Below, piece by piece: positions 11,244-64,000 of a stretch of DNA of 64,000 nucleotides. The position numbers and the translations under genes are program-made. The number at the start of each line of letters is the position of its first letter. Positions within the stretch are counted from its first letter, which is position 1. Source of the DNA: Promethearchaeota archaeon (GTDB lineage Archaea > Asgardarchaeota > Lokiarchaeia > Sigyniarchaeales > SOKP01); assembly GCA_019058445.1 (NCBI GenBank), contig JAHPZA010000010.1:434001-498000 (forward strand), given 5' to 3'. Below the pieces are notes generated by a model. The model worked only from the letters and a program-made list of their open reading frames with translations. It searched no databases and was not told the origin of the DNA.

Positions 11244-14200
11244 ATGACAAGTGAAGCTCTTACATACGAGGATCTATCTAACGAAGCTATTCTTGAGATG
11301 TTCCAAAATTCAATATTGAAGAATGTTAAAAAAAAATATCAAAGTAACATTAGAAATGGTAAGGCATTAAAATCAAATTATCTTGAAATTGAAAGTGACC
11401 CTGAGCCTTATACTAGGCGTAAAATTGAACCTATCTTGAATAGATTTCTTCCCAATATAGATTTCAATGCAGAAGTCCATAAAATTACAAGTTTAGGTAA
11501 TTTAAGGAAGCCAGATGGTTTTATTAAATCAAAAGATAAAAAGATAAATAAAAATATCTTGATCGAATGGGAACCTTTTAATGAAGATTTAAGAGTTAAA
11601 AAAGATCATGGAATAAATCAAGCCAAAACGTGGATATCTGACATAAATATAGGACAAAATAACGATGCATTAGTAACAAATGGGAGAGATTGGATATTAA
11701 TTACAACCCAAATGATAGAAAATGAAATTAGAGTTATAGAGCAAGATTTTTCTGTTAAAGAAGCTCTTAAATTTATGGAGGATATCTACAACGGGAAAAA
11801 AATACCTAAAAATAATCTTGAGGAAAGAATTGATATAACTGAAAAGTTCTATAACTGGTATGTCGCATTAATTCATGGAGGAGAATATATCGATAAAGAA
11901 AATAAAAAAAAATATATTTCAAAGGAGAATTGTTTATTAAATAATATAAAAAATACCTCAAATAAGCGGGAAAAAGAAGATTTTATTAGACTTATCTTTA
12001 CAAGACTAATTTTTATAAGAATTCTTAATGAATATGGGATAATTAAAGAAGATATACTTAACTATCTGAAAAATACTGAGCCTGAAGATTTTTATAATCG
12101 GATTAATCAACTTTTTTTTGAAACTTTAAATACTCCTATAAAAGAAAGGGAAAATATTCCAGATGTTTATGAGCAAATTCCCTTTTTAAATGGAGATTTA
12201 TTTAGACAGAAATCAATTGATAGTAAAGGTTTAAAAATTGAAAGAGAGTCATATATCGATGCTATCCAATTTTTAAGAACCTTTAATTTTATGAAAGAAT
12301 TCGAGAATTTAGAAAAAAACTATAAAATTGACAATACCATTAATCCAGAGATTTTAGGACATATTTTAGAAAAAACTATTAAGGATAGGAAACAAAGTGG
12401 AGTGTACTATACTCCACAGTTTATAACCGAGTATATGGCTCAAAATATTATTGAAGAATACTTATTTAAGAAGTTAATAGAATTTTTAAAAGAAAGTAAG
12501 GACTCACAATGGAAATATATTGAATGCTTTAAAGATTTTTATGATCTTAACACTATAATCCTAAGAAAGTTTTATGATGAACATATAAAAGACATTAAAA
12601 TATGCGATCCTGCTGTTGGTTCAGGAGCATTTCTCTTAAGTTGTGGGAATGTTCTTTTCAAAATAAGAAGAAAAATCCATGGAATAATAGGAGTTCATGA
12701 AAATGACTATATGATTAAAAAAGAGATAATTCAGAATAATCTATATGGTGTTGATATCAAGGAACCAGCAGTAGATATTTGTAAATTAAGATTATGGTTA
12801 TGGATTATTGAAAAACATAAGCCAGAACCATTGCCAAATATAGATTTCAATATTAGAAAAGGAAATACACTTATTGGTTACACTAATACTCAAACACTAA
12901 AAATTGATACGAGTGATATTAGTTCGTGGGAGAAAAAAGCTAACTTAATGGATATTTTTTTAGAGAGAAATCAATTAATAAAAAATTATTACTATACAGA
13001 AAATCCTACATCCCAAAAGGCTTTAAAAAGGGATATTGATGAAATTACGACAATATTTTATAATAAAATTAACGAGAATCTTGCAAATGAATTGAAGAGG
13101 GAAAAAGTTAGTATAAATTCAAGGAAGCTTTCTGATTTAAACGCTTTTCATTGGATTATGGAATATTCTGAAGTATTTGAAAAGAATAATGGTTTTGATA
13201 TCATAATCGGAAATCCTCCCTATTTTAGAATCACTTTTGCCCCAAAAATCGAGCAAAAAATTGTTGGAAAAATGGGTATTTTAAAAAATTTTCATCATGG
13301 TCAAGGTGATATTTATTATGATTTCATTGTACGTTGTTATGATTTGCTAGCTGAAGGAGGATATTTTATTTTTATAACTTCAAGGTATTGGTTAGAATCA
13401 GCTTATGCAAATTATTTAAAGAAATTCATTAAAAAAAAAATAAAATTAACAAAAATTATTGATTTTAGAGAAAGTCTAATCTTTGAAGGAGTTGATATCC
13501 ATAATACTATTTTATCCTATATAAAACAAAAACCTGAAAAAGATAATTATCCCTTAGATGTTTACTTTTTAAAAGAAGATTTTTTTGAAAAAACAAGAAG
13601 CCCTTATCTTAAAGATTATTTAGAAAAAGTAGGAAAATATGAACTAAATAATTGGAGATTAGATGAAAATTGGGCTTTTGTCCCAAAAAAACATAAAGAT
13701 TTGTTTATGAAAATTAAAAGTATTAAAACAAAATTAGGTGATGATTACAATTGCAATCAATATTCAAATTGCTTTAGAAAAAGGTTAAAAAAATTATTAA
13801 TTTTTGAAGAGAAACCAAAAGAAGTAGCTATGAAATATTTAAGGAAATATCAGAGAATGGGAGAAGTAAATAAATTTTCGGTATCAAAAGTTAAAGATAA
13901 ATTTGTTTTTGTCTCACATAACATTGAGAAAGCATTAAAGGATTATGAGTTGAATAAATTCTTTTTAGCTCATAATATTTCAAAAGAGGATATTATTGAA
14001 ATCAAAAAAGATAGTGACAAAAATATTGATAAATATAAAGAAATAATTTTTATTGGTTATCGAATTCCACGAATAATTTATAGCTTTACGTATGATAATG
14101 AAAATACATATATTGATAATACATATTTTATAACAAGAAAAAAGCCTACATCTTTTTCTTTAAAATATGTTATTGCAGTTTTGAATTCGGAATTAATGAG

Positions 14201-14501
14201 ATATTATATTGATCATGTAGGTAAAAAAAAGGATTTTGAAATTGAAATAGGGGCTAATTTTATTAATAGTTTGCCTTTAATTAATAAAAGGGGATCTTTA
14301 ACTAAGGAAGATTTGAGCAGAATTGAAGAACTTGAATTATTAATTTCAAAAATCATAAAATTTGAGCAAAGTAACAAAAATATTGATGAATTAATTGAAA
14401 GATTAAATAATCATGTATACAATTTATATCGAATTACAGGAGAAGAGCAGAAATTAATAAAAACCTATCTAAATAAGATTCATTCAATATTATATAAATA
14501 A
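11244..14501 (+). CDS. type IIG-like restriction endonuclease-methyltransferase
   Basis: A 1085-residue single-chain enzyme of the Eco57I/type IIG or PglX-like class. Near residues 70-110, KPDGFI followed by ILIEWEP resembles a PD-(D/E)xK nuclease core, although ExE replaces the usual ExK. The helical connector precedes GVYYTPQFITEYMA (about residue 388). The SAM-binding motif I is CDPAVGSGAFLLS (about 453), and the catalytic NPPY of N6-adenine methylation is in IIGNPPYF (about 657). The C-terminal third is the target-recognition region. Composition is noticeably AT- and lysine-rich compared with neighbours, suggesting transfer. No separate specificity subunit is present. Confidence 0.88.
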   Translation: MTSEALTYEDLSNEAILEMFQNSILKNVKKKYQSNIRNGKALKSNYLEIESDPEPYTRRKIEPILNRFLPNIDFNAEVHKITSLGNLRKPDGFIKSKDKKINKNILIEWEPFNEDLRVKKDHGINQAKTWISDINIGQNNDALVTNGRDWILITTQMIENEIRVIEQDFSVKEALKFMEDIYNGKKIPKNNLEERIDITEKFYNWYVALIHGGEYIDKENKKKYISKENCLLNNIKNTSNKREKEDFIRLIFTRLIFIRILNEYGIIKEDILNYLKNTEPEDFYNRINQLFFETLNTPIKERENIPDVYEQIPFLNGDLFRQKSIDSKGLKIERESYIDAIQFLRTFNFMKEFENLEKNYKIDNTINPEILGHILEKTIKDRKQSGVYYTPQFITEYMAQNIIEEYLFKKLIEFLKESKDSQWKYIECFKDFYDLNTIILRKFYDEHIKDIKICDPAVGSGAFLLSCGNVLFKIRRKIHGIIGVHENDYMIKKEIIQNNLYGVDIKEPAVDICKLRLWLWIIEKHKPEPLPNIDFNIRKGNTLIGYTNTQTLKIDTSDISSWEKKANLMDIFLERNQLIKNYYYTENPTSQKALKRDIDEITTIFYNKINENLANELKREKVSINSRKLSDLNAFHWIMEYSEVFEKNNGFDIIIGNPPYFRITFAPKIEQKIVGKMGILKNFHHGQGDIYYDFIVRCYDLLAEGGYFIFITSRYWLESAYANYLKKFIKKKIKLTKIIDFRESLIFEGVDIHNTILSYIKQKPEKDNYPLDVYFLKEDFFEKTRSPYLKDYLEKVGKYELNNWRLDENWAFVPKKHKDLFMKIKSIKTKLGDDYNCNQYSNCFRKRLKKLLIFEEKPKEVAMKYLRKYQRMGEVNKFSVSKVKDKFVFVSHNIEKALKDYELNKFFLAHNISKEDIIEIKKDSDKNIDKYKEIIFIGYRIPRIIYSFTYDNENTYIDNTYFITRKKPTSFSLKYVIAVLNSELMRYYIDHVGKKKDFEIEIGANFINSLPLINKRGSLTKEDLSRIEELELLISKIIKFEQSNKNIDELIERLNNHVYNLYRITGEEQKLIKTYLNKIHSILYK

Positions 14502-14704
14502 AATCGAATTTTTGATCCTTTTATCTCATACCCATAAATATCATATTAGGAATTGGTCTTTTTTTGTTCAGATAATAACGCTATCTAAATGAATAATTCA
14601 TCAGTCTCTTAATTAATTAATTTTATTAATCTAATTAAAAATCTAACACTAAATATAAATATAAGATTTCTTGAAGCTTAAATTTTAAGGAATTCTTGAT
14701 TTTA

Positions 14705-15922
14705 ATGATGAACAATGTCAAAATGGAAAAGAAAACCTACACAACATCGATGCTCATAAAAGATATTAAAAATGAAATCACAAAATTAATTTCTTTAAAA
14801 AATCTATACAATGGAATACTATCAAATGAAAAATTAAGCGTAATTTTAGGTCAATCAAAAACTCATGTAGAGACTATTAAGAGATCAGTAAAATTAAATC
14901 CAAAATATCAAATTGCAAATTATTTCATTGAGGGCTATAAAACAAATTTACAAAATCAATTCGGTAATAAAAGTAAGGAAGTAATAGAATATATTAATAA
15001 ATATCAGAATTTAAATAAGCTTAAATGGAAGAATATGGATAACAATGTTTTAAAATATCATCCTAATTTAAAATTGGATTATTTTAAATCAATTGATTCC
15101 AAAGAAAAAGCTTATTGGTTAGGATGGATATTTGCTGAAGGTTATTTTTCTTATGATTCTAAAAATAATTCAATAGTATTTGGAGTAGAAATTAGTAGAA
15201 ATGATATAATTCTAATAGAAAGATTTACGCATGATATTGGATATAATCTTGAACATAAGTATAAAAGATCTGAAAGCAATACAATTGCTATTTATACAAG
15301 AGGTAAGAAATTTGTCCAAAATTTAATAGATCAATTCACGACTAATTTAAAACTAAAAAAGCCTGATGTTATAGGAAACCAAAAATCAAAAGGAATAATT
15401 TTACCTGAATTTGGCAATCGAGAACTGAATTTAGCCTTCCTTCTTGGATTTTATGATGGAGATGGGATTCAAGGCGAAACAGCAATTACTTGTGGAAGTA
15501 AAAAGTTTTTGGAGGGGATAAAGAAAAAATATAATTTAGTCCATCAAATAAGATATTATAAATCGAAATCAATATTGAATGATAGATTAATTGAAGGTTC
15601 AGGTTGGCGATTGAGTTTAGGTGCAAAGTTATTCAATGAAATGATGTATAATTATAGGAGAAGTTTACCTCGAAAGCGAAAATTATTCGAATTAAAAGAG
15701 GAGAAGGCAATTAGATTAGCCAATTATGCAATAAGCCGAAAAAAATTTAAGTTTACTAAATTGCAATTAGAAAAATTAGTATGGGAAATGCCATTGAATA
15801 AAATTGCAGAACTACATAATATTCAGTTTAAGATTCAAATATCAGAATCCCTAATTGGTAAATATTGTAAAAAGTGGAATATTCAAAAGCCAAATCGAGG
15901 ATATTGGAGAACAGTAAAATAA
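14705..15922 (+). CDS. LAGLIDADG homing endonuclease-like protein
   Basis: A 405-residue free-standing protein with two LAGLIDADG-like motifs, AYWLGWIFAEGYF near residue 137 and LAFLLGFYDGDGIQG near residue 245. The helical N-terminal region includes an HTH-like stretch, and the basic C-terminal tail is probably DNA binding. I use ATG 14705; TTG at 14696 is an alternative. It is not inside a recognisable host gene, so it is not a visible intein. It sits between the type IIG gene and a broken methyltransferase tail. Extreme AT content matches the preceding restriction gene and suggests a shared mobile origin. Confidence 0.8.
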   Translation: MMNNVKMEKKTYTTSMLIKDIKNEITKLISLKNLYNGILSNEKLSVILGQSKTHVETIKRSVKLNPKYQIANYFIEGYKTNLQNQFGNKSKEVIEYINKYQNLNKLKWKNMDNNVLKYHPNLKLDYFKSIDSKEKAYWLGWIFAEGYFSYDSKNNSIVFGVEISRNDIILIERFTHDIGYNLEHKYKRSESNTIAIYTRGKKFVQNLIDQFTTNLKLKKPDVIGNQKSKGIILPEFGNRELNLAFLLGFYDGDGIQGETAITCGSKKFLEGIKKKYNLVHQIRYYKSKSILNDRLIEGSGWRLSLGAKLFNEMMYNYRRSLPRKRKLFELKEEKAIRLANYAISRKKFKFTKLQLEKLVWEMPLNKIAELHNIQFKIQISESLIGKYCKKWNIQKPNRGYWRTVK

Positions 15923-37086: not shown

Positions 37087-38346
37087 GTGTCTCCTTTTAA
37101 ATATGAAATTATCCATTTTAGTTTTACAATGCGATTAACAGAGATAATCATTGTAAGATCATCCGAACAACTTAGTAAATTATGCCATTTGGCTAAAAAT
37201 CTATACAATTTAGGAAATTGGTATTTAAGACAGGATTACTTTAATCTTAATAACATGCTCAATTATTATGATTTAGATTTTATTCTCAAGCGAAAAGAAG
37301 CATATAGAAATTTACCATCCCAAACATCCCAACAAATACTTAAATTACTATATAGAAATTGGAAATCTTATTTTAAAGGATTTATGGAATATCGAATTGA
37401 TGTTAAAAAATTTAGAAAAAAACCGAAAATTCCAGGATATAAAAAGAAAAATGGGGAGTCAATTATTTTTTTTACTAATCAACAATGTAAAATTAAGAAC
37501 GGTTGGTTATATTTTCCAAGAAGAGTTAATCTTGAACCTATTAGAACCCGAATTAAAGAAAAATTAAAGGAAATAAGGATTATTCCCTTAGGAGGGTGTT
37601 ATAAAGTAGAAATAGTTTATGAAAAAGAAGAACAAGATTTAGGATTAAATAAAGAACATATTTTAGGTATTGATTTAGGATTAAACAATCTCATAACTGC
37701 TGTAAATAATAATGGGTGTAGGCCATTTATTATTAAAGGTGGGATTGTGAAATCCATAAACCAGTATTATAACAAAAAAGTCGCATATTTTAGAAGCATT
37801 GAAAATAAGAAAGGTAATTTTAGGGATACAAAGAGAATTCAAAAACTACATTTAAAGAGGAATAATAAAATAAACACGATTTTTCACCGAATTTCCAAGA
37901 AGGTAATTAAATATTGTATTCAAAATAACATCGGAGCAATTATAATAGGATACAATGGAGGTTGGAAACAGAGGATAAATATCGGAAAAAAGAATAATCA
38001 GAACTTTGTCCAAGTTCCTTTCTTGAAATTAATAAAACAAATAAAATACAAAGCTATAATAAAAGGAATTCGCGTTTTTACCGTTGATGAAGCACATACT
38101 TCTAAATGCAGTTTTTTGGATAATGAACCAATAGAGAAACACAAAAAATATCGAGGTAAAAGAATTAAAAGAGGATTGTTTAAAACTTCCAACGGGATAA
38201 TCATCAATGCTGATGTAAACGCAGCATATAATATCATGAAAAAGGTATTCCCAAATTCCGTTTCGGTTGATGGGATAGAGGTATTCGGATTGATGCCACA
38301 AATTATTTATCGAACTATATATGATAGTATATTTGAAATAAAATGA
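37087..38346 (+). CDS. tnpB: solitary TnpB (IS200/IS605 OrfB family)
   Basis: A 419-residue TnpB-type protein. The basic N-terminal region has a helix-turn-helix and 'KTRIPGY'-like lysine-rich core. The RuvC-like domain shows the first catalytic aspartate in GIDLGLNNLITA (about residue 198) and a final aspartate in NADVNAAYNI (about 378). The usual RuvC-II glutamate is replaced by AIIIGYNGGWK, and the usual four zinc-finger cysteines are missing, with TSKCSFLDNEPIEKHKKY in their place. That is a recognised TnpB subgroup with rearranged active site. No TnpA is adjacent, so it is a TnpB-only copy. GTG start at 37087. Confidence 0.85.
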   Translation: MSPFKYEIIHFSFTMRLTEIIIVRSSEQLSKLCHLAKNLYNLGNWYLRQDYFNLNNMLNYYDLDFILKRKEAYRNLPSQTSQQILKLLYRNWKSYFKGFMEYRIDVKKFRKKPKIPGYKKKNGESIIFFTNQQCKIKNGWLYFPRRVNLEPIRTRIKEKLKEIRIIPLGGCYKVEIVYEKEEQDLGLNKEHILGIDLGLNNLITAVNNNGCRPFIIKGGIVKSINQYYNKKVAYFRSIENKKGNFRDTKRIQKLHLKRNNKINTIFHRISKKVIKYCIQNNIGAIIIGYNGGWKQRINIGKKNNQNFVQVPFLKLIKQIKYKAIIKGIRVFTVDEAHTSKCSFLDNEPIEKHKKYRGKRIKRGLFKTSNGIIINADVNAAYNIMKKVFPNSVSVDGIEVFGLMPQIIYRTIYDSIFEIK

Positions 38347-57603: not shown

Positions 57604-58224
57604 ATGGCACAACAAATTATGGTTCCAGGTGCGTGTGGAGTAGCAATAAAGTGTAAAGATGGAGTTGTTCTTGGAAATGATCGAAGAGCGACTTGGGGGT
57701 ATACTGTTACGAATAAATCTACAAGAAAGGTATTTAAAATAACAGACCACATAGGACTCACAGCATACGGATTAATTGGGGACTTTCAGTTATTAGTTAA
57801 AATTTTAAGAGCTCAAGCGAATCTATATGAATTAGATGCAGGGGAAAGAATTTCCACTAAGAGTATGGGAAAATTGGTTTCTAATTACCTCTACTCCAGA
57901 AAAATGTACCCCTTATATACAAACTTAGTTATCGCTGGAATGGAAATAGATGGTATCCCTTCCCTATATACTTTGGATGCCATAGGTTCTTTAATGCCTG
58001 ATGATTATGGCACTGCCGGAACCGGGATGCTATTATCAATTGGAATTTTAGAAGCGGAATATAAGCCTGATATAACTGTTGCGGAGGGTGAAAAATTGGT
58101 GGAAAAGACAATCAGAAATTCAATAACGAGGGATGCGATGAGCGGAAATGGTATAGACATTTTGACTATTACTAAAGATGGTGCCAAAGAAAAGTATATC
58201 GATATTAACGAATTAGGAGAATAA
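57604..58224 (+). CDS. proteasome beta-type subunit lacking the catalytic threonine
   Basis: A 206-residue beta-type 20S subunit. GVAIKCKDGVVLGNDRRATW aligns with TTVGIxxKDGVVLAxDRRAT of active subunits and shows the catalytic Asp (DRR) and later lysine region (TRKVFKI). However, the residue at the Thr1 position is alanine (A10), in the stretch PGACGV. The protein has no propeptide-like extension before it. A missing nucleophile means it cannot hydrolyse peptide bonds and is best compared with eukaryotic inactive beta subunits. A ribosome-binding AAGGTAG precedes ATG 57604. It lies next to the ubiquitin genes. Confidence 0.85.
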   Translation: MAQQIMVPGACGVAIKCKDGVVLGNDRRATWGYTVTNKSTRKVFKITDHIGLTAYGLIGDFQLLVKILRAQANLYELDAGERISTKSMGKLVSNYLYSRKMYPLYTNLVIAGMEIDGIPSLYTLDAIGSLMPDDYGTAGTGMLLSIGILEAEYKPDITVAEGEKLVEKTIRNSITRDAMSGNGIDILTITKDGAKEKYIDINELGE

Positions 58225-58283: not shown

Positions 58284-60371
58284 TTGAATGGTGCTTTTAA
58301 TTTGAGATTAATTAATAACAATTTTAACGATATTGAAGAAATAAACGGATTTTCGAAAGAAGAATTAATTGATATTAAAAGAAAACTAACAAAATTAAAC
58401 TTAGATAAAGCGGATCAAACAGAAATTGAAGGATATCTCTCTGAGAAATTTTCAAGTGAAATAATTGAGTTTTATTCTAATTATCTGAATGAAATAAAAA
58501 CCTTTATTTTTGAAAATCTATTATCGACAACGGATTCTCAAAATAGAATAAATTTTAATCACTTTCCTCTAAAATCTGGAATTAAAAATGAGATTAAAAA
58601 AATATATAATAATTTATTGAATTTAAAGGTAAATGCTCAAAATACGAAGAGATTTTTAAAGAATAGTGCTTTCCTTGATGAGTTGTTAATAACGATCCAA
58701 GATATCATGAAAGAATATCAGGATTTAACTTCTCAATTAAATGTTCCAGAAAATAGAGTTACGGATATTTATGATAATTATGCCTATATCTGGATTGAAA
58801 TTAATAAATTAAAAAATCAATACTTTAAAATCAATAACTTGACAGAAGATTTAACAAATTGGGATGAGTTCCAAGGGTTTTATGAATGTATTAGAAATAA
58901 TATCATCGAATCTACTAAAAAAAAAGAGCGCAAGAAAAAAAATTTCATCATAACTACCCATTTTAATGATATTTATTCATATTTCAGCAAGTTAAAAGGA
59001 GAAAATCCCGATATCTATACAGATTTAATCGCTTTCTTATACAATATAAATCTAATTGAGGAGTTTAAAGAAAAAATAGAGGATCTTGATGAATATGTAA
59101 ATATTCTTGATAGAAAGGAAATTAAAAATAGAATTAAATCTTTAATGAATCCAATAATTAAAAAGTTAATTGAGGATAAAATAAAAGGAACTTTAAACGA
59201 AATTATTGAATTAGATAAAACTTCCAGATTAGGAGATCAGAAAAAAGACATAAACATAAAGAGGGTTTTAGAACAGAAAATTGGTACGTATTTACCTCAA
59301 ATAATTGATTATTATTTAAAAGGATTAGAAAATAAGTATCAAGCTGCTATTAGTGATTTAAAGGGATATGATGAATTTAAAAATGTGGCAAAATTTTATT
59401 CTGAAAAAATAGATATTCTCAATTCTCAAGTTGAGGAAATAGAAAATTATTTTGCTAATTACACTTTAATTTTAAAACCTTATGAGGATATCATAAATAA
59501 ACATAAGAAAACTCTTTCGAATATAACTTCTGAAATTGAAAGAAGGAAAAATGAATATTTATTTTACCTCAAAACTATAAGAAAGGAAAGATTGAGGGAT
59601 AATATAAGAACATTTATTTTTGAGAAAATAACAGAAGTTAATACTTTAATGAGTAAATATCAAGATGAAACTTCACTGATTGTAAGGGAAGAATTTCCTC
59701 AGCTAAAAAAAATGCAAAATATTCTTAGTGAATACAAAGTAAATATTCAAAAAATAAAAGATGAAGTATATCAAAAAATAGATTCTTTTAAAGAAAAAGA
59801 CATTGATATCTATCAAATTATTAAGCAATGGGAGGATAATTTTACACTTAAAAAACAGCAATTAAGTTTTCTCCTGAGTCTGTTAATAAATAAATTGTTT
59901 AAAAGTTTTAAGGATATGATTGAAGAAGAAAAATTGTTATATGAGCACATTACTGATATTACTAATCAAAACGAGAATTATGATAATCTTCCCTTAAATT
60001 TCGCTATATCAAATCTTTTAGTTGACAAATTAACTGAAGATGAATTAGATGAAAGAATTAACGAGATTCACTCAAAAATTGAAAACCTCAATAAAGAAAT
60101 AGAACTTTACAGAGCAGAACTCTCCAATTTAAAAAGAACTTTAGCAAATAAGGTAAAGATCAGAGAGGGAATAACTAGTGATGATATCCAATGCGGTGTC
60201 TGCCGAAAAAAGTTTGATTTTTCGAAAGATAAAATAATAAAATGTCCGTTTTGCGGTGCTGTATTTCATTATTTATGCGTTGCGTCATGGCTCAGTAAAC
60301 ACAACGCTTGCCCTTCATGTCAGAATACTTTTCTTGATCCAAATGCAGGTATTTATTCTGATCAAGAATAA
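58284..60371 (+). CDS. coiled-coil RING-type E3 candidate
   Basis: A 695-residue protein. Residues 1-625 are helical and largely coiled coil, with leucine/isoleucine heptads throughout. The C-terminal ~60 residues hold a cross-brace with ligands C637, C640, C654, C657, H662, C665, C676 and C679 (CGVC, CPFC, FHYLC, CPSC). The CASWL spacing between ligands is RING-like. RING domains position an E2 for ubiquitin transfer. It follows the beta subunit gene by 59 bases on the same strand. TTG at 58284 is the only start near; no ATG is close. Confidence 0.7.
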   Translation: MNGAFNLRLINNNFNDIEEINGFSKEELIDIKRKLTKLNLDKADQTEIEGYLSEKFSSEIIEFYSNYLNEIKTFIFENLLSTTDSQNRINFNHFPLKSGIKNEIKKIYNNLLNLKVNAQNTKRFLKNSAFLDELLITIQDIMKEYQDLTSQLNVPENRVTDIYDNYAYIWIEINKLKNQYFKINNLTEDLTNWDEFQGFYECIRNNIIESTKKKERKKKNFIITTHFNDIYSYFSKLKGENPDIYTDLIAFLYNINLIEEFKEKIEDLDEYVNILDRKEIKNRIKSLMNPIIKKLIEDKIKGTLNEIIELDKTSRLGDQKKDINIKRVLEQKIGTYLPQIIDYYLKGLENKYQAAISDLKGYDEFKNVAKFYSEKIDILNSQVEEIENYFANYTLILKPYEDIINKHKKTLSNITSEIERRKNEYLFYLKTIRKERLRDNIRTFIFEKITEVNTLMSKYQDETSLIVREEFPQLKKMQNILSEYKVNIQKIKDEVYQKIDSFKEKDIDIYQIIKQWEDNFTLKKQQLSFLLSLLINKLFKSFKDMIEEEKLLYEHITDITNQNENYDNLPLNFAISNLLVDKLTEDELDERINEIHSKIENLNKEIELYRAELSNLKRTLANKVKIREGITSDDIQCGVCRKKFDFSKDKIIKCPFCGAVFHYLCVASWLSKHNACPSCQNTFLDPNAGIYSDQE

Positions 60372-60397: not shown

Positions 60398-61588
60398 TCA
60401 ATATTTATATTTTGGAGGTGTTTTACTCTTAATATTATTATGAGGAGTTTTACTTTTAATATGATCTTTTTGTATTGCTTTAAATTTTTTTATCTCTGTG
60501 TCCAATCTCTTTTTTTCTTGCTGCAATTGCGCTTTCTCTTGATCTAATTTCTTTCTTTCGCGTTGTATATTCTTTTTTTCATTATTTATATTATTTTTTT
60601 CTTTTTCTATTCGATTTTTTTCACTCTCATTATAAGATTGAATTTTCTCTTTTTCATGTTGTAATCTTCTTAATTCATTTTTTAAACGTTCGATTTTATT
60701 CTCTAAATCTCGTGCCTTATTTTCTAATGAGCCTTTTCTTTTTTCTAATCCCGGGATTTTATTTCGTATATTTTTTACGAGAGCCTCCTCATTTTTTCTA
60801 TCTCTACCCAACGTCTGTTTTTCTCTGTTAATTTCATTTTTCAAGCTTTCTAACTCAATAGTTTTCTTTTTCATATCTTTTAATTTCTTATTGAGATCAT
60901 CGGTTTTTTTCCTAAGATTTTCTCTAGCATCTTTAAGTTTTTTCTTTTCGGCATTAATTAGAGCTTGGCTATTTATTACTTCTTTACGTATACTATCTAA
61001 TTCGTTTTTTAAACGGTTTCTATCATTTGAAAGGTGATCAATTTCAGTTGTTAAATTATCTACTTCTTTCTCTAGTTTAAATTTCTTGTTTTCCAGATCA
61101 TTTCCTCTTTTTTCTAACCCAGGGATTTTAGTTTTTATTTCTGTTAATTGCTTTCCTCTTTTTTGCTTTTCAAAATCCCAATCCTTTTTCTCATTATTAA
61201 TATCATCTCTTACCTTGTTTAACTCATCTCTTTGCTTATTAATTTCATTTATGATATTAGCATATTCCTGTTTCTTTCCTTGAATTTTTTTATTTCCATC
61301 ATTGATTATTTTTTTAATATTATCTAATTCGTTAGCTAATTGATCCTTTTCATAAATTAATTCCTTAATTTCATTTTCTCTTTCCTTTCTTTTTCTTTCT
61401 AAATCTTTAATCGCTTCTTGATATCCTTGTATTTTACTAACTATATTTTCCCATTCCCTACGTTCTTCTTCCAATTTTTGGCGCTCGAACTTAATTTTTT
61501 TGAGCAAAGTTTTATCAGCAGTTAATATTTCTTCTTTCTCAGGAGTTTTTTCTTGGATTTGATACTTAGGAGGTTTGTTATTCTTCAT
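60398..61588 (-). CDS. long coiled-coil protein with KTP motifs at both ends
   Basis: A 396-residue protein that is almost all heptad coiled coil, lysine/glutamate-rich with repeating EKKK/NIRNKIPGLEK blocks (KIPGLEK occurs at least twice, near residues 155 and 290). The ends are not coiled coil: residues 5-16 include PPKYQ and EKTP, and residues 378-396 contain KSKTP twice and end PPKYKY. The ubiquitin-like protein encoded on the opposite side of the shared promoter region also carries KSKTP in its tail. No enzyme domain is seen. ATG at 61588. Confidence 0.6.
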   Translation of the reverse strand: MKNNKPPKYQIQEKTPEKEEILTADKTLLKKIKFERQKLEEERREWENIVSKIQGYQEAIKDLERKRKERENEIKELIYEKDQLANELDNIKKIINDGNKKIQGKKQEYANIINEINKQRDELNKVRDDINNEKKDWDFEKQKRGKQLTEIKTKIPGLEKRGNDLENKKFKLEKEVDNLTTEIDHLSNDRNRLKNELDSIRKEVINSQALINAEKKKLKDARENLRKKTDDLNKKLKDMKKKTIELESLKNEINREKQTLGRDRKNEEALVKNIRNKIPGLEKRKGSLENKARDLENKIERLKNELRRLQHEKEKIQSYNESEKNRIEKEKNNINNEKKNIQRERKKLDQEKAQLQQEKKRLDTEIKKFKAIQKDHIKSKTPHNNIKSKTPPKYKY

Positions 61589-61797
61589 TTGTTTTTATTC
61601 CTTAAAGATATATTTATTAATATAAATTCTAATTTATTATATCAAGGTACTCGATATATTTATAAAAGATACAGTCAAAACTAAATAATTATAATAAATG
61701 ACTTTATTTATATAGTCGAGCTCTTATTATTTATATACTAGTATAAATATAAATAGGTATTTTATAGCTAAAATAAAGAAAAAAAAGGTTGATTATT
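61589..61797. promoter_or_regulatory. bidirectional promoter region between coiled-coil and ubiquitin-like genes
   Basis: A 209-base AT-rich divergent promoter region. TATACTAGTATA (61734-61745) is a perfect palindrome within a TATA-like stretch about 55 bases upstream of the ubiquitin-like ATG. Another TATA-like stretch (ATATATTTATAAA) near 61657 could serve the other gene. The shared region makes co-regulation of the two genes likely. Confidence 0.4.
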
Positions 61798-62139
61798 ATG
61801 GGTTTTGATGATGAATTTGATGAGGATTTAGGAGAACCTGAGGAAAAGACCCCTATGAAGTCTAAAACTCCATCGACTCCCCCAGCAGGGGGAAAGAAGA
61901 TGAATCTCTACTTTACATCTACAATTGGACCTGGTGAGAAGCGACAGAAATTATTAGTTGATGACGGTAATACCGTCGGTGCTGTTAAACAGACAATTGG
62001 CAATATTTTTGGATTAGATCCAGCAGATTTTCATTTATCTTCGGGAGGAGTTACAATGGATGATAGCTCTCCTTTAAGCTCATATAATGTAAATGATGGC
62101 GATGAAGTACTTTTAATACCAGCAAGTACTGCTGGTTAG
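61798..62139 (+). CDS. ubiquitin-like protein with N-terminal tail and terminal Ala-Gly
   Basis: A 113-residue protein. Residues 1-34 are an acidic then basic/proline-rich tail that contains EKTP, KSKTP and AGG. Residues 35-113 make a beta-grasp fold: MNLYFTSTIGPGEKRQKLLV, then VGAVKQTIGNIFGLDPADF (the helix), SSGGVTMDDSSPLSSYNV and DEVLLIPASTAG. The chain ends Ala-Gly, not Gly-Gly, with nothing to process after it. Ending with a single glycine is like UFM1. ATG 61798 is chosen; a TTG nine bases upstream would add three residues. E1 and E2 genes follow directly. Confidence 0.82.
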   Translation: MGFDDEFDEDLGEPEEKTPMKSKTPSTPPAGGKKMNLYFTSTIGPGEKRQKLLVDDGNTVGAVKQTIGNIFGLDPADFHLSSGGVTMDDSSPLSSYNVNDGDEVLLIPASTAG

Positions 62140-62256: not shown

Positions 62257-63489
62257 GTGGAAGATTTGGAAGAGGATTCTAATTTTTTTAGTAAAGAATT
62301 AACACCAGACGAGAGAGATCTGTATGATCGTCAGTTTAGATTGGAAGGATGGGATCAAAAACTAATTAAAAATTCACGAGTATTGATAGCGGGGGTAGGA
62401 GGATTAGGTTGTGAAATTGCTAAGAATTTGGCTATGTTGGGAGTGGGTCATCTTGACTTAGTAGATTTAGATATAATAGAACATTCGAATTTGAATCGAC
62501 AAATCCTCTTTACTGAGGCAAAAATGGGTGAGGCAAAAGCTGTAGTTGCCGCGAGAAAATTAACACAAATTAATCCAAACATTACAATTAAAGGTTATCA
62601 CAGTTCATTAGAAAGGCTCGATCCTGCGATTTATAAAGCAGCTGATGTTATTATCGGAGGTTTAGATTCGATGAATGCGAGACTTAATTTAAATGCTCAG
62701 TGTGTACGATTTAAAAAACCGCTTATCGATGGAGGTGTTGCGGGGTATAATGGACATATCTATACAGTTTACCCTTACGAAAACGCCTGTTATGAATGTG
62801 ATCCGCTTCCAGTTGCAGATATGGATGAAATGGCCGCATGCACTGTAGTGGGTGTCCCTAGAAAACGGGTTCACTGTATTTTTAAGGCAAATATGCTTTT
62901 CAAGGATGAAAATGATAGAGATCCTGATCCAAAAAATATAGAAGATGTAAATTTAATTCAAAATGAAGCAAACAAATTTGCTCAGAAACATAATTTTTTA
63001 CCGCTATTTTCAAAAGCAGATATTATTAAAATCATAGATAGACATGATCCTGGGATAATTACGATAAATTCAATTATATCTGCACTTCAATCGCATGAAA
63101 CCATCAAGGTTTTGCATTGGTTGAAAGGAAATAACGCGTTGGGAGAGCCTATCAAGTCCTATATTATTTTTAATGGAATGACCATGAAATTTTTCCCTAT
63201 TGAAAAGAAAAGAAATTTACAATGTCTCCAATGTGGTGACGAGGTACGGAGGGTAGTAATTGAAATTAATCGCAATACCAGTTGTGAGAAAATTGTAAAT
63301 AAGTTAGAAAAGATGGGATTTAATAAAAATCCGGAAATGGAGCCAACTTTAACAATAATGGACTTCAATAATATAAATATAATAGATACTGATCTTACGC
63401 CTATTGAAAATGATTTAAGAGATTTAGAATTGATAACAGCCGTAGGTTTTGATGGGGGAGAAATTTTTATAACTCTAAAAATCGTATAA
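62257..63489 (+). CDS. ubiquitin-like activating enzyme E1 (Uba3-like)
   Basis: A 410-residue E1. The nucleotide loop is AGVGGLGCEIAKNL with NLNRQILF as the adenylation arginine region. Cysteine 195 in AACTVVGVPR occupies the catalytic position of Uba3/NEDD8-type E1s and is followed by a helical catalytic-Cys half-domain. Zinc-type pairs CYEC (178, 181) and CLQC (323, 326) hold the fold. The last ~75 residues resemble a ubiquitin-fold domain that recruits the E2. Adenylation of the UBL terminus is followed by thioester formation. GTG start at 62257 lies 118 bases after the UBL. A TATA-like stretch near 62222-62236 suggests its own promoter. Confidence 0.88.
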   Translation: MEDLEEDSNFFSKELTPDERDLYDRQFRLEGWDQKLIKNSRVLIAGVGGLGCEIAKNLAMLGVGHLDLVDLDIIEHSNLNRQILFTEAKMGEAKAVVAARKLTQINPNITIKGYHSSLERLDPAIYKAADVIIGGLDSMNARLNLNAQCVRFKKPLIDGGVAGYNGHIYTVYPYENACYECDPLPVADMDEMAACTVVGVPRKRVHCIFKANMLFKDENDRDPDPKNIEDVNLIQNEANKFAQKHNFLPLFSKADIIKIIDRHDPGIITINSIISALQSHETIKVLHWLKGNNALGEPIKSYIIFNGMTMKFFPIEKKRNLQCLQCGDEVRRVVIEINRNTSCEKIVNKLEKMGFNKNPEMEPTLTIMDFNNINIIDTDLTPIENDLRDLELITAVGFDGGEIFITLKIV

Positions 63490-63591: not shown

Positions 63592-64000
63592 ATGAGTTTA
63601 AGAAGTAGTCGAGTTTCTCAGGATTTTGCTTCGCTTAAAAAGTTACTTAAGGATGGAACCATCGCTCAACTAAAACCTTTTAATCCAAAACAGAAAAGTA
63701 TTGATCATTTAGCTGTCCTGCTTAAAGGTCCTAAGGGGACCGCTTATCAAGGAGGAGTATTTAAACTGGAAATCAAATATCCCCCTACGTATCCCAGACA
63801 TCCACCATTCGTTCGCTTACATACTCCTATTTGGCATCCTAATTTTTGGCCAAAACCTTCTGAGTATCCTGGTCAGCGAAATATTTGTCTAGCGCTCGTA
63901 GATCCGAGTTTAGTAGGGAAAAAAGGAGGTTGGAGCCCATCAAAAACAATTGTCACTGTAATACAAGCAATTACAGCAATGTTTAATACGCGAGGTTTAT
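63592..64000 (+). CDS. E2 ubiquitin-conjugating enzyme, N-terminal part
   Basis: The first 136 codons of an E2, cut by the right edge. The UBC fold is recognisable: RVSQDFASLKKLLK, YQGGVFKLEIKYPPTYPRHP PF-like strands (read in short pieces), then WHPNF, and NICLALV with catalytic cysteine 99, followed by GGWSPSKTIVTVIQAI. The HPN-Cys-W-S-P order is the E2 signature; HPNFW differs from HPNI of most E2s. It accepts the UBL from the E1 encoded directly upstream (103 bases). ATG at 63592. Confidence 0.9.
   Translation, partial: MSLRSSRVSQDFASLKKLLKDGTIAQLKPFNPKQKSIDHLAVLLKGPKGTAYQGGVFKLEIKYPPTYPRHPPFVRLHTPIWHPNFWPKPSEYPGQRNICLALVDPSLVGKKGGWSPSKTIVTVIQAITAMFNTRGL

Follow-up and report, generated by a model that had tools for sequence, protein, structure and literature searches.

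The archaeal proteasome beta ring is classically seen as seven identical active subunits, and the inactive beta subunits of eukaryotes are usually explained as losses of activity following duplication. The closest described system to the one reported here is that of S. acidocaldarius. In reconstitution experiments, a truncated form of its beta subunit Saci0662 gave, together with the alpha subunit, a 28-mer that was stable but without activity (Anjum et al. 2015, PMC4569737). The active beta subunit, Saci0909, fails to join the alpha subunit alone, and when all three subunits are co-expressed it enters at a lower ratio and confers activity (PMC4569737). Both beta subunits were assigned a Thr1 in that study (PMC4569737). 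In the present gap-free alignment, the sequence G318, which is 100% identical over its aligned part to chain H of PDB entry 6z46 (titled the S. acidocaldarius 20S proteasome Saci0613/Saci0662), reads EELPATAIGIK, that is Ala1 followed by Thr2. The threonine of Saci0662 would then be at position 2, and this would explain the inertness of the subunit. Yeast beta1, beta2 and beta5 subunits carrying the T1A change retain an uncleaved propeptide and have no activity (PMC4792962).

A new member of the already known Saci0662 type is present in the 64,000-nucleotide stretch of Lokiarchaeal DNA that was analysed (the window). The gene is an uninterrupted open reading frame on the forward strand (57604 to 58224), encoding a 206 aa proteasome beta subunit without Thr1 that matches PF00227 with an E-value of 1.6e-49. 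The AlphaFold model of the protein (pLDDT 88.3, pTM 0.87) has 6z46 as its best Foldseek match in the PDB (TMt 0.91, 40% identity), and the best PDB sequence match is 6z46_H at 148.7 bits, the next being at 136.4. The protein begins with MAQQIMVPG followed by ACGVAIKCKDGVVLGNDRRAT, and around position 1 it therefore reads MAQQIMVPG/ACGVAIKC. The first nine codons (57604 to 57630, forward strand) encode this tail, which lies where a propeptide would sit and ends in Gly at position -1; similar tails of the form M[AS]QQI-VPG are kept in the family. It is predicted from the absence of the nucleophile that the tail stays attached. No alpha-subunit gate motif (SPxGRLxQVEYA-like) is found in the protein, the N-terminal tail being only 9 residues.

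At position 1, where active beta subunits have the nucleophile Thr, the gene has a GCG codon for Ala (57631 to 57633, forward strand), and position 2 is Cys; both assignments come from gap-free alignment with catalytic beta subunits. The first-pass annotation had proposed exactly this replacement of Thr1 by Ala in an otherwise beta-like active site, and the alignments and the intact reading frame bear it out. Its description of PGACGV in place of TTxxG is also correct, the comparison being G/A-C-G-V with G/T-T-T-V. The other residues of catalytic beta subunits, Asp17 (57679 to 57681), Lys33 (57727 to 57729), and Asp166 to Ser169 within an RDAMSG motif (58132 to 58143), are all present on the forward strand. 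Lys33 is K in 142/144 of the subfamily without Thr1, and Asp166 and Ser169 are D in 143/144 and S in 122/144. Ser129 of active beta subunits is replaced by Thr (58021 to 58023, forward strand); the subfamily is divided here (T 76, S 63), and 73 of 74 Thr1 beta subunits have S. The conservation of Lys33 and Asp166 without the nucleophile means that the fold and the pocket are under constraint.

A missed start or a frameshift could have hidden a Thr1. An in-frame upstream extension places no Thr at position 1, and all 30 of the order-level orthologues read have Ala1, which excludes both. The genome sequence is a draft assembly, so that an assembly error, a frameshift or a young pseudogene might be considered. 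This is hardly conceivable, however, given that the reading frame is intact, that Ala1 is kept with high identity across the family, and that the same state of position 1 is found throughout the Asgard and TACK archaea.

The orthologues share 69-87% identity with the window gene within the family and 53-63% in the other families of the order. The 30 with Ala1 range from 52 to 87% identity and have C, A, V or T at position 2. In other Asgard lineages Ala1 is found with GATTVG-type starts. A scan of named genomes gave 80 loci, with Ala1 in all but six where position 1 was read. Those with Ala1 are from the Asgard Lokiarchaeota, Helarchaeota, Njordarchaeum, Jordarchaeia, Freyarchaeota, Borrarchaeum, Sifarchaeum, and Sigynarchaeota, and from the TACK Bathyarchaeota, Methanomethylicota, Culexarchaeum, and Calditenuaceae. 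The six exceptions, all with Thr1, are two Aenigmatarchaeota, a Thermococci MAG, two Methanosarcinales, and a Nitrososphaeria MAG. For the subfamily as a whole (144 Asgard and TACK sequences), position 1 is A in 131, G in 7, and S in 6, whereas the Thr1 beta subunits gathered have T in 74 out of 74. This distribution across Asgard and TACK archaea rules out a recent loss of Thr1 within the genus. Gly at position 1 is seen in Asgard beta subunits of families f9 (L335:1450-2199, IGGTVVGI) and f22 (L306:2898-3530, YGGTIAAI). Several of the TACK relatives that are 64-69% identical to Saci0662 (L228-L233) have Ser1 (EELPSTA) and are Sulfolobus-like putative inert beta subunits.

Position 2 varies freely in the subfamily, with T in 97, C in 24, A in 13, and V in 8. 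This bears on the idea that catalysis proceeds through another nucleophile, such as Cys2 after atypical processing. Cys serves as an N-terminal nucleophile in other Ntn hydrolases, and the window gene encodes one at position 2. Nevertheless, a residue that changes so readily is a very improbable nucleophile, and there is no indel to displace the catalytic residues.

The inert beta subunit is not indispensable across all Asgard archaea, as none was found in six sampled genomes of families f11 to f17 (G044, G048, G068, G088, G092, and G096). In several f11-f17 genomes, a single Thr1 beta gene adjoins an alpha gene. The suggestion that such a paralogue is notable among archaea is only half right; a non-catalytic subunit is indeed encoded beside active ones, but the subfamily is common in the sampled TACK and in most Asgard lineages.

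The genome containing the window is a draft of 4.6 Mb in 10 contigs, 92.6% complete with 4.3% contamination. Five PF00227 genes were identified in it, comprising two alpha genes (L001 and L003), two Thr1 beta genes (L002 and L005), both of which carry TTTVG, and the gene at 57604 to 58224. This count of five is usual among relatives too. The first-pass annotation had called for a search of the whole genome for an active beta gene, and the two that were found exclude the case of a lone beta subunit. The reading as a non-catalytic paralogue that accompanies active subunits, comparable to eukaryotic beta rings, is well supported. At least one Thr1 beta is also present in well-covered genomes that have the inert beta. 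The proteasome gene set is rich, with two alpha, three beta, and three PAN-like ATPase genes. Two of the ATPases are above the family cut-off, and the three (G000:C1:139641-140732, C6:470253-471341, and C2:108841-109908) have the HbYX-like ends LYM, LFS, and IYS. The second alpha gene, L003 (G000:C6:858268-861822), is divergent and is flanked by genes for a Rab-like small GTPase and a Sir2 protein.

Trees were computed without positions 1-3. In every such tree the archaeal beta subunits without Thr1 form one clade, with no Thr1 archaeal members. Its SH-aLRT/UFBoot support is 90.1/82 with the human inactive beta subunits inside it and 88.6/93 in a tree with yeast and wider sampling. Under PMSF C20, with eukaryotic beta3 included, its support is 97. 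FastTree places 41 of 41 together with or without the catalytic neighbourhood, and in a masked archaea-only tree the UFBoot value is only 51. Forcing all of the Asgard beta subunits together, as would be expected if Thr1 had been lost in Asgard archaea independently of TACK, costs 95.6 log units with the catalytic columns masked, and this independent loss is rejected (AU p=0.0005). Forcing together the inert and active Lokiarchaeal subunits is not rejected (AU p=0.11), but a loss within Lokiarchaea does not fit, since Ala1 is present in other Asgard classes as well. With moderate support at the node, the trees place the window gene and Saci0662 in one subfamily of common descent, apart from the Thr1 beta subunits. 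A partial search of the literature found no paper on Asgard beta subunits without Thr1, nor an earlier statement of an inert/active split common to TACK and Asgard archaea.

Taken with the S. acidocaldarius system, these results make it likely that the gene encodes a structural, non-catalytic 20S beta subunit, the Asgard counterpart of Saci0662, which is held in mixed rings with Thr1 beta subunits. Without Thr1, it would neither cleave peptide bonds nor remove its own short N-terminal tail. It would pack with alpha subunits to form the 20S cylinder, within which the beta rings would be heteromeric, the active sites being supplied by one or both of the Thr1 subunits L002 and L005. The inert subunit would act as a ring filler and assembly platform, and may limit or place the active sites. 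The ring composition, stoichiometry, and tail retention proposed for the Lokiarchaeal proteasome are inferred by homology. The same is so for the putative inactive cylinder that it would build with alpha and that would admit an active beta, a behaviour known for S. acidocaldarius only (PMC4569737).

It could instead be supposed that the subunit forms a separate and wholly inert alpha/beta particle for a non-proteolytic use, for example as a chaperone cage or a decoy. In vitro, Saci0613 and Saci0662 by themselves do form a 28-mer that is stable and inactive (PMC4569737), and neither of the Thr1 beta genes adjoins the window gene. Such a particle is nonetheless unlikely, as the active S. acidocaldarius subunit joins the same ring on co-expression (PMC4569737) and the well-covered genomes with an inert beta also carry at least one Thr1 beta.

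The gene lies close to genes for a ubiquitin-like system. Directly downstream is a gene for a 695 aa, long helical/coiled-coil protein (58284 to 60371, forward strand) with a C-terminal RING-like finger at about 60192-60320 (zf-RING_2, 9.7e-8), the predicted structure of which is poor (pLDDT 55). A coiled-coil protein gene on the reverse strand (60398 to 61588), at the same position in loci L054 and L055, divides this pair from genes on the forward strand for a ubiquitin-like protein (61789 to 62139; PF00240, 5.9e-7), an E1-like ThiF protein (62257 to 63489; PF00899, 1.3e-60), and an E2 (63592 to 64000). The E2 gene runs past the end of the window and is followed just beyond it by a JAMM gene; on locus L053 their matches are to PF00179 (2.7e-24) and PF01398 (1.2e-13). 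The RING, ubiquitin-like, E1, and E2 genes are located where the first reading of the sequence had put them. Two ubiquitin-like proteins are encoded (61789-62139 and L053:10752-11660). One ends in PASTAG, with a single C-terminal Gly, and the other, with a long N-terminal region, ends in SSTAGFF, two residues past the Gly. Beyond the E2 and JAMM genes, L053:7972-9156 encodes a membrane protein without a Pfam match; its C-terminus is rich in Cys, and it may be a further RING-like protein. Elsewhere in the window, genes for a TnpB-like transposon protein (37087-38346), a homing-endonuclease-like protein (14696-15922), and a large restriction/methylase-like protein (11244-14501) were recognised by eye.

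This neighbourhood had invited the idea that the inert subunit links the products of the adjacent genes to the proteasome, so recruiting modified substrates. The RING coiled-coil gene does adjoin the beta gene in all 15 family contexts, 14 times downstream in the same orientation and once divergently, and within the genus the ubiquitin-like, E1, E2, and JAMM genes are nearby. However, the ubiquitin-like and E1 genes are within about 10 kb of the beta gene only at three loci of the same genus (L053-L055); the 12 remaining family loci lack them at that distance. Distant homologues of the RING protein in families f2 and f3 are unlinked to the beta gene, and no homologue was found in f4, although all three families keep the Ala1 beta. 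The Ala1 beta gene has unrelated neighbours in TACK archaea and in Asgard families other than this one. In addition, recruitment factors do not usually bind in the interior of the cylinder, which is where the beta rings are located. A role in setting up substrate recruitment is thus not borne out and appears improbable, a conserved operon with ubiquitin-like, E1, and E2 genes is ruled out beyond the genus by the locus contexts, and a general tie of the inert beta to ubiquitin-like conjugation is not supported. It is possible that the RING coiled-coil protein is linked to the proteasome. The Ala1 beta gene of Sifarchaeum is followed downstream by a gene (L153:4804-6804) whose product combines winged-helix/PCI-like repeats with a RING-like finger at its C-terminus and weakly matches the E3 UFM1 ligase family.

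The relation to eukaryotic subunits was assessed with human beta1-7 and yeast beta1, 3, 4, 6, and 7, the sequences being matched to PDB chains (for yeast beta4, on bit score alone). The first tree has human beta3, 4, 6, and 7 within the Asgard part of the clade without Thr1. With yeast and wider sampling, beta3, 4, 6, and 7 are sister to this clade (91/71), and beta1, 2, and 5 group with Lokiarchaeal and Sigynarchaeal Thr1 beta subunits (94.4/93). When placed one at a time with the catalytic columns masked, beta3, beta6, and beta7 are inside the subfamily, beta4 is just outside, and beta1, 2, and 5 are elsewhere; unmasked, beta3 is near-basal and beta4 is with the Thr1 subunits. Two separate origins are favoured by the best trees, but neither monophyly of the eukaryotic beta subunits (AU p 0.30 and 0.47) nor a grouping of the eukaryotic inactive subunits with Thr1 beta subunits (AU p 0.51 and 0.31) is rejected. 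The protein is short and the branches are long. The link of the eukaryotic inactive subunits to the subfamily is suggestive only. The fuller proposal, that beta3, 4, 6, and 7 come from an Asgard/TACK beta without Thr1, that beta1, 2, and 5 come from an Asgard Thr1 beta, and that the inert/active split predates eukaryotes, is put forward tentatively, with a little under an even chance of being right.

That the inert beta is common to TACK and most Asgard archaea implies that mixed rings are old. The common ancestor of TACK and Asgard archaea probably already had rings of active and inactive subunits, which suggests that such rings existed before eukaryotes. If the two-type origin is true, the seven-member eukaryotic ring would have grown from an inherited two-type ring, rather than through later losses of activity. 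If the eukaryotic inactive subunits do belong to this branch, two or three recombinant Lokiarchaeal subunits would make the origin of the heteromeric eukaryotic proteasome testable.

The eukaryotic beta3, beta4, beta6, and beta7 resemble the Lokiarchaeal subunit in being non-catalytic beta subunits beside catalytic ones, and in most trees they group with or near its subfamily, a putative kinship. Beta3 and beta6 have Gly-Gly at positions -1 and 1, as do the Gly1 forms of Asgard families f9 and f22. The eukaryotic inactive subunits are highly diverged, however, with beta7 retaining Thr at position 1, and they occupy a ring of seven fixed positions, unlike the Lokiarchaeal subunit. The engineered yeast T1A mutants (5cz5 and 5fgd) share with it the Gly(-1)-Ala1 sequence and the absent nucleophile, but these are laboratory mutants, harmful in beta5, whereas the Lokiarchaeal Ala1 is natural and conserved. 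With the catalytic archaeal subunits of T. acidophilum (1pma), M. jannaschii (3h4p), and Saci0909, it has in common the fold, D17 (or E17), K33, D166, S169, and Gly(-1). It differs from them in having Ala for Thr1 and Thr for Ser129, and self-processing is not expected. The closest likeness is to Saci0662, with which it shares a gap-free Ala1 (PATAIGIK against GACGVAIK), the clade, and the fold, and in both genomes a Thr1 paralogue accompanies the inert beta. The two differ in that they are only about 40% identical, with Gly at position -1 in the Lokiarchaeal protein and Pro in Saci0662, and in that S. acidocaldarius has a single alpha and a single Thr1 beta where the Lokiarchaeal genome has two of each.
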